Shown piece by piece: positions 305 through 4,587 of a DNA stretch of 64,000 nt. Each line of letters opens with the position of its first letter. Position 1 is the first letter of the stretch. Source of the DNA: Candidatus Physcocola equi (GTDB lineage: Bacteria > Bacteroidota > Bacteroidia > Bacteroidales > Paludibacteraceae); NCBI GenBank assembly GCA_018064855.1, contig JAGHUM010000068.1:1-64000 (forward strand), written 5' to 3'. The notes beneath the pieces were generated by a model, which was given only the letters and a program-made list of their open reading frames with translations, had not been told where the DNA came from and made no database searches. A program made the position numbers and the translations under genes.

Positions 305-332
305 ATAAAATCAGCCCGAAGGCTGATTCTGT
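305..332 (-). terminator. Rho-independent terminator of the lipoprotein gene
   Basis: A perfect 8-bp stem AATCAGCC (309-316) / GGCTGATT (321-328) encloses the tetraloop CGAA (TTCG when read on the minus strand, a very stable loop). On the minus strand it is followed by TTATTGTTTT. It lies about 45 nt beyond the stop of the minus-strand lipoprotein gene at 373. Confidence 0.85.
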
Positions 333-365
333 TTTAAAGTGCCATAATTTCCATTATTTTAAACC
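331..365 (+). repeat. Gene-punctuating repeat, copy 1
   Basis: This 35-nt sequence begins GTTTTAAAGTGCC and ends ATTATTTTAAACC. It is identical over all 35 nt to copy 2 at 1138-1172, and a 27-nt part recurs inverted at 2074-2100. It has internal dyad symmetry: the ends GTTTTAAA/TTTTAAAC and an inner ATAAT/ATTAT around TTCC. It sits between the stop of the lipoprotein gene and its terminator. Confidence 0.85.
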
Positions 366-1137: not shown

Positions 1138-1172
1138 GTTTTAAAGTGCCATAATTTCCATTATTTTAAACC
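1138..1172 (+). repeat. Gene-punctuating repeat, copy 2
   Basis: Identical over 35 nt to copy 1 (331-365) and in the same orientation. With the inverted copy at 2074-2100 it flanks the FGE-fold gene as a roughly 960-bp unit. With copy 1 it flanks the lipoprotein gene as a direct repeat. Confidence 0.85.
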
Positions 1173-1276: not shown

Positions 1277-1996
1277 ATGAAAAATGAAAATACAAAGAGT
1301 TCCGATACATTATCTTTCACAGTCAATGGAGTCTCCTTCAAGATGAAATTGGTGAAGCACGGCAGCTTTGCCATGGGTGCGACAGCGGAAATGGAGAATC
1401 CTAATTCCGATGAAAAACCGGTTCACCAAGTGACAATTACCAAAGATTACTATATGGGTGAGACATCAGTGACGCAATCGTTGTGGGAGGCGGTGATGGG
1501 TGGTAATCCATCACGTTTCAGAGGAGAAAACAATCCTGTGGAAAACGTCACGTGGGACGACTGCCATAACTTCATCAGCAAGATGAATGAGTTGACAGGT
1601 AAGCAGTTTCGTCTGCCAACCGAGGCAGAATGGGAATACGCTGCACGCGGTGGAAACAAGAGTAGGCACACGCAATATGCGGGAAGTGCTAATCTGGAAG
1701 ATGTGGCATGGTACGATGATAATTCTGGAGGACACCCTCATCCTGTGGCTCAGAAGCAATCCAACGAATTGGGTCTGTATGACATGAGTGGCAACGTTTG
1801 GGAGTGGTGCCAGGACTGGTTTAATTACTACTCCAATTCTCCTTCCGTTGACCCACAAGGTCCGACGTCGGGCCCGGGCCGCGTATTGCGCGGTGGTTGC
1901 TGGAACTTCTGGCTGAGTACCTGTAGTTCTTCCAGTCGCGGCTGGTGCAATCCAGACAGCAAGTTCAGCATCGATGGTTTTCGTCTTGCTCTTTAG
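1277..1996 (+). CDS. FGE/sulfatase-modifying-factor fold protein with DGR-like variable C-terminus
   Basis: The product has 239 residues and no signal peptide, so it is probably cytoplasmic. The family signature is clear: MVLVKGGxFxMG-like KLVKHGSFAMGA near residue 30, GETSVTQSLWEAVMG near 63, RLPTEAEWEYAARGG near 115, LGLYDMSGNVWEWC near 165, and RVLRGG...GFRLAL at the end. This is the C-type-lectin-like fold of formylglycine-generating enzymes. The catalytic Cys arrangement of true FGE is not preserved. The last 35 residues, between RVLRGG and GFRLAL, match the pattern of DGR variable regions: most codons end in C or T and can be derived from AAC/AAT by changes at adenines only. This suggests a ligand-binding display protein rather than an enzyme. 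No reverse transcriptase or template repeat is in the window. The ATG at 1277 is the only plausible start and the stop is TAG. Confidence 0.85.
   Translation: MKNENTKSSDTLSFTVNGVSFKMKLVKHGSFAMGATAEMENPNSDEKPVHQVTITKDYYMGETSVTQSLWEAVMGGNPSRFRGENNPVENVTWDDCHNFISKMNELTGKQFRLPTEAEWEYAARGGNKSRHTQYAGSANLEDVAWYDDNSGGHPHPVAQKQSNELGLYDMSGNVWEWCQDWFNYYSNSPSVDPQGPTSGPGRVLRGGCWNFWLSTCSSSSRGWCNPDSKFSIDGFRLAL
1888..1981 (+). other. Putative DGR variable region (VR)
   Basis: This is the segment coding for residues from about 205 to 235 of the FGE-fold protein, ending at the conserved GFRLAL. Codons include TTC, AGT, ACC, TGT, TCT, TCC, CGC, GGC, TGC, AGC, ATC and GAT. All of these are reachable from AAC or AAT by replacing adenines. 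TGG, CTG and AAG are exceptions. The layout (hypervariable C-terminal codons, then a conserved 3' end) is established for DGR target genes. The assignment here is inferred, because no template repeat is visible. Confidence 0.5.
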
Positions 1997-2073
1997 AAAT
2001 TCGATCCCCCTCAGGAGGAAACAGACGGGAAGCGGAGGAGCACAGTGCCACCCGAATGTAAAGTGTGGGGGAC

Positions 2074-2100
2074 ATAATGGAAATTACGCTACTTTAAAAC
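2074..2100 (-). repeat. Gene-punctuating repeat, copy 3 (inverted, diverged)
   Basis: On the minus strand this reads GTTTTAAAGT, AGCG, TAATTTCCATTAT. It matches copies 1 and 2 at 24 of 27 positions, with the three differences confined to the internal GCCA/AGCG block. The homology stops before the TTTAAACC end of the other copies. The remainder of the 1997-2180 interval is relatively G-rich, non-coding and without recognised features. Confidence 0.75.
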
Positions 2101-2181
2101 AGCACCATAGGTGGAGTAAGTGAAGGAAACTATCACAGGAGAGATAGAATTGATTACCCAACCAGAAATCATCTAATCCAC

Positions 2182-2235: not shown

Positions 2236-3132
2236 TTAAAAATGCACACTCAATAAAATTTCGTGTGTGTTCGATGGAAGATTGTTGTATTTGCCGATGT
2301 TGAAATCGTAGCAATAACCCAATCTGTATCGGTCCCATTCAAAACCAGCGGTCGCACTCATCATAGACATGTCGAACGGACGGTTTACATCTGGTTTCCA
2401 TGTCGCTCCAGCCCAAATCATTTTTCTGAAGAACGCCTGACATCCAATTTCCAGGGTGTTGGTCTTGTGCATGTGCATGTATGAAGCCAACGGTGCGAGG
2501 TCAAACTCGGATCCAAGACTGAAGAAACCGCGCGCATAGGCGTAGTAGTGACGACCTTTCTTGAATGTGGTGGTGGAATCGTTGGTGACGTGCGTGCATG
2601 AAATACCCGCCATCCAGTGTTTGTTGCTGATCTCGGCACCAATATTGAAGTCCGGTTTTACTTCTGTTTCTTTCTCCGATACGAATGTGTTGGAATTCAA
2701 TTCCGATTCGTCGCGCAGGGTGTTGGCAAGCGGATCGAAGTAGCCGACATTCATACCAGCAGAGATACCGAGAGAGAGGATGTATTCTGGTGTGAGGTCG
2801 ATGTGGAAGGAATAAACAGCCTGTGCGTTTGTCTGGCTGTTTCCAACACCGATGTTGTCATAGTTGGCGGTGACGCCGAAACTGGATCTTAGTTTCTCGC
2901 TGTAGCCCGTGAAGTTGAACAATCCGGTCCAGGGCGCGTTATCTACACCTGCCCATTGCATACGACCAAGCAAGAAGGCGTCGAAGCCTTTGTTGTTACC
3001 TGTGCCGGCTGGGTTTACGTTGATACGAGAGAACACTTGCTGAGAGACCATCAAATCTTGTTGGGCAGAGCAAATGGTTGCCGAAAGCGCAGCGGCTGCG
3101 GCTAAAATGTATTTCTTTATATTGAGTTTCAT
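2236..3132 (-). CDS. PorP/SprF family T9SS outer-membrane protein
   Basis: The product has 298 residues with a signal peptide cleaved after about residue 23 (CSA/QQ). The PorP/SprF hallmarks are present: an early FSRINVNPAGTG block (family pattern: asparagine-proline-alanine near the N-terminus), RMQWAG, then alternating beta-strands, ending in a strand with terminal Phe (LLSVHF). Family members are beta-barrels. SprF is needed for secretion of the adhesin SprB in Flavobacterium, and PorP-like proteins partner with type B sorting domains. This is the last gene of a tight minus-strand set: 15 bp after the OmpA/PD40 gene, which itself follows the type-B adhesin by 6 bp. That order supports a role as a dedicated partner of the adhesin. 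A second PorP gene in the window (41905-42876) belongs to the core operon. Confidence 0.9.
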   Translation of the reverse strand: MKLNIKKYILAAAAALSATICSAQQDLMVSQQVFSRINVNPAGTGNNKGFDAFLLGRMQWAGVDNAPWTGLFNFTGYSEKLRSSFGVTANYDNIGVGNSQTNAQAVYSFHIDLTPEYILSLGISAGMNVGYFDPLANTLRDESELNSNTFVSEKETEVKPDFNIGAEISNKHWMAGISCTHVTNDSTTTFKKGRHYYAYARGFFSLGSEFDLAPLASYMHMHKTNTLEIGCQAFFRKMIWAGATWKPDVNRPFDMSMMSATAGFEWDRYRLGYCYDFNIGKYNNLPSNTHEILLSVHF

Positions 3133-3147
3133 GACTGTTTCGGCTTA

Positions 3148-4587
3148 TTACTCTGTGATTACTATTTCCACACGTCTGTTCTTCTGGTGCTCGTCTTCCG
3201 TTTCTGCGTTGCGGAATACAGGCTTGTATTCACCAAGTCCCATTGTGAAAAGTCTCTTTCTGTCTATACCTTTTTTCACAAGCAATCTTTCAATAGTTTT
3301 TGCTCGTTTCAGACTCAATGCGTCATTGTATTCATACGTGCCTCTTTCATCGGTGTGGCCTATGATAAGGAAACTCTTTTTAGGGTTGTGGTTGATGAAT
3401 TCAATGATGACCTCGATGTCTTTTTCGTAGTTGCCATTCAGCACATCTTTGTCGTAATCAAAATAGAAGATACGTTTGTCATAGGTGGCAACCACATTTT
3501 TTGAAGCGCGAATGACGGTGTCCTGATTCTGCTTGAAGGCATTGTTAAGAGTGGATGCAGACTGCTTTTCCACCTCGTCGTTGGTGTTTGTGTTGGCAAG
3601 CACTTCCAAGATGCGGTCGTTTTCTGTGACTATGACTTCGTCTTTAGGTGTGAACTCGTCTTCAATGTCACCCTTGAGAGCCATGTCTTCTTTTTTATCA
3701 TCCTTGGCAGGTGCGACGGTTGCGGAATCTGTCACAGCCAAGGCTGGAGTGGAATCCGCAATAGCAATGGCTGGAGTGGAATCTACTTTGTCGGCCAGCA
3801 GATTCTGGTTTTCATCCGCTTTCTTGGCATTCTCCGCATCTTTGTATTTCTGGAGGGCCATTGGCTTGTTCCAGTCTTCAATCTTGCTGATGTAGGCGTG
3901 AAATTTGCCGCTGTCTGGCACTGCGTTCATGCCCTTGCGGTTCGATCCGAATGCGATCAATGAGTCGTTGAATACCACAGGCACTGTCTCATCGGCGAGG
4001 CTGTTGACTTCTTTGCCCAATCTTTCTGCCGGGGTCCATTCTCCGTCTTCATTTATCTCTGATTTCCAGATGTCCCATCCCATGGAACCTTCCGCATTGG
4101 ATGCAAAGTAAATGGTGTTGCCATCGCTTGTGACTGAGGGGTTGATGATGGCTGCTTCGTTGGCTGGAAGATAGCGCCAACTGGCATAGGCAAGCATGCT
4201 GCCGTTGAATTCGTTGCGTTCCTTGCCCAAGCCCGGAATCCATTGCTTCTTCCCGGATTTGAACTCTCCCACGCCTTTTTCTTTTGCGGCATAGATGTTG
4301 CCATCTTTGCTGTAGAAGAGTGTTCCGTTTTTAGCGTATGTCAAAGTACCGTCGGCTTTGAGTTTGGATAGTTTTTTGTTGTATTTCAAATTGACAATAC
4401 CATTGGCTGTCTTTTCTCCGATAAAGATGCTGTCGCCTTTTCTGACGAACACCAGATTGTCTCGGTAATTGGTGAAAACGTCTTCAACTGTCGCGTTTTC
4501 GTGTTTGGTGAAGTCTCCTTGCTGTTCGCTTGCTACGACTGTTGAGACGCAGGTGAGCAAGAAAGACAGAATATATAATGCTTTCAT
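3148..4587 (-). CDS. OmpA-family protein with PD40 repeats (PorE/SprE-type envelope anchor)
   Basis: The product has 479 residues. A signal peptide ends near residue 19 (VVA/SEQQ). Residues about 30-235 contain PD40/WD40-like beta-propeller motifs (NPSVTSDGNTIYFAS, GWDIWKS, LIAFGSNRKG). A Pro/Ala/Asp linker near 270-300 has a repeated DSTPA(I/L)A unit. The C-terminal 105 residues form an OmpA-C domain: YFDYDKDVL, GHTDERGTYEYN, LSLKRA, GLGEYKP and NRRVEIVI. The Asp of GHTDERG and the Arg of NRRVE are the usual peptidoglycan diaminopimelate ligands. The protein should sit in the periplasm and tether an outer-membrane assembly to the cell wall. It lacks the TPR block of PorE, so it is a relative rather than a clear orthologue. 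It is translated 6 bp after the adhesin and 15 bp before PorP/SprF. Confidence 0.88.
   Translation of the reverse strand: MKALYILSFLLTCVSTVVASEQQGDFTKHENATVEDVFTNYRDNLVFVRKGDSIFIGEKTANGIVNLKYNKKLSKLKADGTLTYAKNGTLFYSKDGNIYAAKEKGVGEFKSGKKQWIPGLGKERNEFNGSMLAYASWRYLPANEAAIINPSVTSDGNTIYFASNAEGSMGWDIWKSEINEDGEWTPAERLGKEVNSLADETVPVVFNDSLIAFGSNRKGMNAVPDSGKFHAYISKIEDWNKPMALQKYKDAENAKKADENQNLLADKVDSTPAIAIADSTPALAVTDSATVAPAKDDKKEDMALKGDIEDEFTPKDEVIVTENDRILEVLANTNTNDEVEKQSASTLNNAFKQNQDTVIRASKNVVATYDKRIFYFDYDKDVLNGNYEKDIEVIIEFINHNPKKSFLIIGHTDERGTYEYNDALSLKRAKTIERLLVKKGIDRKRLFTMGLGEYKPVFRNAETEDEHQKNRRVEIVITE

Follow-up and report, generated by a model that had tools for sequence, protein, structure and literature searches.

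An orphan FGE-fold gene of Candidatus Physcocola equi and its possible origin as a DGR target

Introduction

Orphan targets of DGRs are a kind of gene already known from Treponema denticola, in which target genes have been reported in isolates without a reverse transcriptase (RT) and template (excerpts of PMC4891356). The gene considered here lies in the window, the whole stretch of 64,000 nucleotides that was analysed, which represents contig C48 of a Candidatus Physcocola equi draft genome (G000; 2.99 Mb, 121 contigs, 90.3% complete). Like TvpA and the orphan targets of T. denticola as presented in those excerpts, it encodes an FGE-fold protein with a C-terminal variable segment between RVLRGG and GFRLA. 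In the T. denticola orphans, most departures from a known template fall on adenines, which is not the case for the window gene, and 62% of the T. denticola targets have lipoprotein signals (excerpts of PMC4891356), whereas none is seen by eye on the window protein, at whose N-terminus (MKNENTKSSDTLSFTV...) a hydrophobic signal sequence is likewise absent as judged by eye.

The same bacterial family contains FGE-type DGRs (G056:C11, G151:C41, G079:C24, and G201:C4), which have the FGE domain and the 26-codon length of the variable segment in common with the window gene. These elements carry a nearby RT (IGNLTSQ) and a template that their segments fit with 0-1 non-A mismatches, whereas the window gene is accompanied by neither. 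DGR-diversified C-type-lectin conflict sensors, as described in the accessible part of PMC10907252, also have a C-terminal FGE domain, and a relative of the window protein in genome G023 is an STK-FGE fusion; unlike such sensors, the window gene is solitary and lacks both a DGR and a recognised defence neighbour. The fold is further common to FGE, PvdO, and GldK (PorK), from which the window protein differs in that it lacks one catalytic Cys of FGE and in that GldK segments show no excess of NNY codons.

The FGE-fold gene and its protein

The window protein matches PF03781 (FGE-sulfatase) over residues 23-238 (E 1.4e-46, Pfam), and its AlphaFold2 model is confident (pLDDT 94.1). Among solved structures, TvpA (2y3c), a DGR variable protein of T. 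denticola, is the top Foldseek match to this model (E 8.1e-26, TM 0.88 by query length) and also the top match by sequence (1.2e-38), followed by a formylglycine-generating enzyme (1.8e-24). The C-type-lectin/FGE-type fold is the one expected of a DGR target, and the variable segment lies near the 3' end of the gene between conserved anchors, as in such targets (Table 1). Across 28 proteins, R205 and G207 of the first anchor are invariant and G206 is nearly so, while G234, R236, and L237 of the second are invariant. An earlier reading made from the sequence only had described the layout as that of a DGR-type variable protein, a description that proved right for the fold, the position of the segment, and the family. 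The gene is flanked by a gene for a 211-aa protein without a Pfam match and by a PorP/SprF gene, and no recognised defence gene adjoins it.

Table 1. Coordinates of the window gene, of repeats near it, and of the DGR found elsewhere in the genome
Feature	Position	Strand	Basis
FGE-fold (C-type-lectin-like) protein, 239 aa	window 1277..1996	+	ORF and PF03781
RVLRGG anchor, conserved, 5' of the variable segment	window 1880..1897, codons 202-207	+	sequence; 28-protein comparison
26-codon segment, counterpart of the DGR variable region in FGE-type targets	window 1898..1975	+	20/26 NNY; Asn codons of family templates at 12 columns
GFRLAL C-terminus, conserved	window 1976..1993, codons 234-239	+	sequence; 28-protein comparison
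34-bp direct repeat, exact	window 332-365 and 1139-1172	+	
Diverged inverted copy of the 34-bp repeat	window 2074-2095	-	
DGR RT of the genome	C33:29488-30786		RVT_1 match; motif IGLRSSQ
Template repeat of the genome's own DGR	C33:29184-29280	+	template pattern
Target segment of the genome's own DGR, inside a 549-aa gene without Pfam match	C33:2451-2547	-	template match

Reverse transcriptase and templates in the genome

No RT was found on the window's contig, in agreement with what had been stated for the window. The whole genome contains a single RVT_1 match, on contig C33. Its RT family (phrog_1423) marks the DGR to which it belongs as phage-type, and roughly 27 kb separate the template of this DGR from its target segment, which is on the opposite strand. 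At up to 3 mismatches, the template pattern of this DGR matches itself and the segment of the 549-aa gene on C33 alone, and an A-tolerant scan detected no similarity between the C33 template and the window. A template for the window segment was sought with a pattern in which A stays A and C, G, or T may be A; at up to 3 mismatches, this search of the genome (90.3% complete) returned the gene itself only, and the reversed control was empty. The template of the only RT in the genome fits another gene, and no RT or template that serves the window gene was found within the genome, as expected of an orphan target. The genome search that had been suggested for both components consequently produced an RT with a target of its own and no template for the window gene. 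No stretch matched among viral contigs, and the 23 phage records with FGE relatives are all below 60% identity. The genome also holds two more FGE paralogues with N-terminal extensions (L004 688-2187 on C86 and L006 619-2034 on C78), whose C-terminal segments are similarly variable (NNY in 10 and 9 of 12 columns); one of the extensions has a sub-threshold DUF533 match.

FGE-type DGRs and orphan targets in the same bacterial family

A search with the G056:C11 RT yields matches at E<=1e-25 in 25 of 358 family genomes, and the [IVL]GxxxSQ motif is present in all 27 RT loci. The FGE-type template pattern (translation RGGSWNNNAxNCRxxNRNNN...) is found in 13 of the 358 genomes, representing 7 of 33 genera, and all 13 are also on the RT list. 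No such template occurs in the six genomes of the window's genus or in the nine of genus g19, home of the nearest relatives; RVT_1 matches in these two genera lie at 11 places in 7 of the 15 genomes, with [IVL]GxxxSQ in C33 of G000 alone. Templates and segments of the family's FGE-type DGRs differ by 0-1 non-A mismatch over 78 nt, a comparison that used 12 of the 13 templates (G198 repeats G196). Relatives with about 43-60% identity to the window protein are cis DGR targets with templates. An A-tolerant template scan of 129 FGE loci (80 with up to 4 kb of flanks) gave clear pairs in L088, L107, L111, and L114 and a weaker one in L106, with no clear pair in a Bacteroidales locus among those 129. 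Besides those of the family, cis pairs thus occur in FGE relatives from Caldithrix, Acidobacteria, Gammaproteobacteria, and Methylumidiphilus MAGs. A scan of distant FGE paralogues, carried out in one template-bearing genome (G056), found no trans target.

In G056:C11 (L137, reverse strand 2454-3587), the RT reading frame contains the template repeat, in frame, at its 3' end, and the RT would end in a translated Asn-rich tail. In G079:C24, a second FGE gene (L178 3904-4590) stands beside an intact DGR and has a core 87% identical to that of the active target, and its segment misfits the adjacent template with 25 non-A mismatches, as a target that is no longer templated near a working-looking RT.

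Other relatives have a template only in a sister genome. The gene of L025 in G018 (99% complete) shows 23 differences over 102 positions from the template of G151, a genome of the same genus, and 22 of these fall on template adenines; in G022 (99% complete), two genes carry 16 and 19 A-site changes relative to the G079 template, with non-A changes numbering 0 and 2, respectively. G018 and G022 have no FGE-type template and no RT match at 1e-25; RVT_1 matches are absent from G022 and number two in G018, both without the DGR motif. Since these genes fit sister-genome templates almost solely with A-site changes, orphan targets do exist in this bacterial family; such a predominance of adenine differences from a relative's template is not found for the window gene.

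Codon composition of the variable segment

The 26 segment residues are numbered 1-26, and Asn codons of family templates are mostly located at positions 3, 4, 5, 8, 13, 15, 16, 17, 21, 23, 24, and 25 (template-Asn columns). NNY codons make up 20 of the 26 in the window gene (10 of 12 at template-Asn columns and 10 of the 14 others) compared with 0.507 elsewhere in the gene, an excess over the gene's own third positions (binomial P = 0.0057) that bears out the claim of a mostly NNY segment; at the template-Asn columns, 6.1 of 12 would be expected (P 0.022). The accompanying claim, that the codons are derivable from AAC/AAT by adenine changes, adds nothing to it, because every NNY codon is derivable in this way. 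Six codons are not NNY (three TGG, CTG, CCA, and AAG). Two of the three TGG (Trp) codons sit at columns where family templates mostly show AAC/AAT, and TGG is unreachable from AAY. At the framework positions 6, 10, and 22, where most family templates encode Ala, Arg, and Arg, the window segment has Leu, Ser, and Lys. The DNA fold of window positions 1975-2110 is not unusual (z 0.46), and an IMH is unrecognisable without a template; a scan for promoters and terminators gave no informative signal.

Relative to the closest family template (G151), the window segment shows 16 non-A mismatches of 62, 11 of these mismatches at third positions, in addition to 22 A-site differences. Comparison with the genes of L021, L022, and L191 over the 12 template-Asn columns reveals differences at codon position 1 in 6-11 columns (0.50-0.92; core 0.23-0.24), at position 2 in 10 (0.83; core 0.13-0.17), and at position 3 in 5-6 (0.42-0.50; core 0.54-0.61). 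This profile is like that of DGR-linked pairs and unlike that of static pairs (L038/L139 and L047/L049), and near-random first and second positions combined with an ordinary third position favour past randomisation of the window segment. The differences between paralogues are nevertheless not confined to template adenines, as third positions change as well, although positions 1 and 2 are far above core; L021 and L191 differ at the third position in 7 of 12 columns, which adenine-only change from one template cannot explain. The absence of a template together with differences beyond adenines, which the sequence-only reading had named as evidence against itself, is thus largely what was found for the window gene, whereas the orphan relatives in G018 and G022 pass the same tests.

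In a quick tree, the window gene groups with genes of G049, G057, and g19 (SH-aLRT 95-96), and DGR-linked genes lie in neighbouring clades; the direction of change, that is, descent of the window clade from a DGR target, is left unsettled by this tree. Pyrimidine-ending codons of degenerate amino acids in the seven genes of the clade number 18 of 25 against 16.9 expected (5 of 5 against 3.2 in the window gene alone), and given this null result the NNY excess of the window gene can come from amino-acid preference. Sister orthologues in G086 and G070 differ at 3 of 36 positions in the 12 columns and at 27 of 624 in the core, and so few column differences indicate that the segment is frozen in that pair.

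Codon trace across the family

Among 155 distinct FGE sequences, 145 have both anchors, 115 of these a 26-residue segment, and 112 a core of at least 150 aa. The class of cis genes comprises 22 rows in the segment count, including two L048 rows (G022, no RT) and the decayed second gene of G079, and 23 rows in the column and synonymous-codon tests, where L025 (G018) is included too; because the related and tandem genes in these counts lack independence, the z-scores are optimistic. In the 89 genes that have no DGR at their locus (window clade included), the 12 template-Asn columns have an entropy of 3.51 bits, with NNY at 0.84 and EKMQW at 0.06, compared with 0.49 and 0.27 in the 23 core columns whose variability equals or exceeds that of the least variable template-Asn column. 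Column 7, which is variable and interspersed among the template-Asn columns, shows 0.34 for both.

The synonymous control considers degenerate amino acids only and compares them with the codons of the same amino acid in the same gene, which removes amino-acid preference. Pyrimidine-ending codons then amount to 114 of 121 in DGR-linked genes (75.7 expected) and to 358 of 472 in the others (287 expected), while in the latter genes the remaining 14 columns are at expectation (504 of 868, 0.58 vs 0.57). As the excess survives this control, many genes without a nearby RT carry the codon trace of templating, the genome-wide absence of an RT behind this trace having been checked for some genomes only. 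Of 30 GldK loci, 12 fitted the anchor pattern, another 12 appeared with no segment (mostly KGG for RGG), and six had no row; the 12 that fitted show no excess, with 7.7 of 12 NNY against 7.0 expected and three EKMQW each. To our knowledge, GldK genes have never been reported as DGR targets.

Origin of the window gene

On present evidence, the window gene is not an active DGR target. The C33 DGR of the same genome has an RT with the DGR motif and a template, yet the possibility that it serves the window gene is close to nil, being refuted at up to 3 mismatches by a template that fits only itself and the segment of the 549-aa gene and that resembles nothing in the window in the A-tolerant scan. 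It is also improbable that the gene is a remote target on which an RT and template, both absent from the draft assembly, still act in trans. Other bacteria do have remote targets (excerpts of PMC4891356 and PMC7517822), and the genome is incomplete and split into many contigs, but FGE-type templates are confined to a small minority of family genomes and absent from the six of the genus, the distant FGE paralogues of G056 included no trans target, and the window segment has drifted at its framework columns, where regular templating would keep such change from occurring. Service in trans, one option of the sequence-only reading, is accordingly not supported, as neither a matching template in the genome nor an FGE-type template in the six genus genomes was found and the sole DGR RT serves another target. 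Catalysis by FGE uses two copper-binding active-site cysteines, with which the structure entries C336S and C341S agree. Aligned to 6muj, the window protein has Phe211 opposite the first cysteine of this pair and Cys216 opposite the second; despite the PF03781 match and the fold, a catalytic formylglycine-generating enzyme is therefore very unlikely, and the absence of one catalytic cysteine makes a binder the likelier function.

The interpretation we lean towards, by a modest preponderance, is that the window gene is an orphan, a fixed relative of the DGR variable proteins, and a frozen former target, which is the best of three options offered by the sequence-only reading, although proof is out of reach for this gene. 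Its serious competitor, to which we give roughly a one-in-three chance, holds that it was never a DGR target but an ordinary FGE-fold paralogue in which point mutation and selection diversify the ligand face, with DGRs merely recruiting members of the family. An ordinary paralogue would agree with the null synonymous test in the window's clade, the third-position changes and TGG codons, the frozen sister pair in G086 and G070, and the lack of an FGE-type template in the examined genomes of the genus and g19, where C33 has the only RT with a DGR motif. It accounts less well for the coincidence of the columns whose first and second positions are near saturation with the template-Asn columns, for the strong bias of these columns towards NNY and away from EKMQW in the 89 relatives in comparison with equally variable core columns, and for a pyrimidine excess that survives the synonymous control in the whole set. 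If the window gene is indeed a frozen former target, its ancestor would have been a DGR target in which adenine-specific retrohoming randomised the ligand-contacting codons; the RT and template would have been lost afterwards, and the surviving variant would now be inherited and drift as an ordinary gene.

Function and genomic settings of relatives

By analogy with its relatives, the window protein is most likely a non-enzymatic ligand-binding (sensor) domain and is probably located in the cytoplasm. FGE/C-type-lectin domains have been published as sensors of conflict systems (accessible part of PMC10907252). The G023 relative belongs to a 560-aa Pkinase-FGE protein (PADLOC STK_OB 5.2e-51), of which it is the C-terminal half, and in G023:C5 (L253 1051-8054) this STK-FGE fusion, a PP2C-like gene, a DarT-TerY fusion, and a UG5-nitrilase RT stand side by side. 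This cassette is a TerY-P-like triad whose kinase protein carries the FGE domain as its C-terminal half. G086 and G070 have a stand-alone FGE gene at the equivalent location, as judged from common downstream genes, and another relative, in G086:C23, comes after an AAA ATPase gene.

Orphan targets reveal what DGRs leave behind. One tentative and rather doubtful proposal is that the DGRs of Bacteroidales may act as transient generators, which randomise an FGE-fold sensor, get lost, and leave a genome-encoded repertoire of fixed binders, some of them integrated in kinase/TerY/DarT or AAA conflict cassettes and the window gene being an old member. If this were true, the NNY/EKMQW pattern limited to the template-Asn columns of genes without a nearby RT would be a fossil record, and, should many fixed Bacteroidales FGE sensors be DGR fossils, searches for current RTs would understate the binding repertoire made by targeted mutation. 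The codon test, based on pyrimidine-ending synonymous codons at template-Asn columns, provides a way to detect such genes without an RT or a template.

Near the window gene, the two exact 34-bp direct repeats bracket a gene at 373-1008, and with the diverged inverted copy beyond the FGE gene there are three copies in the window (Table 1). Elsewhere in the genome, just one more place, on C25, matches this repeat at 2 mismatches. These repeats may represent sites of recombination or some different local element.
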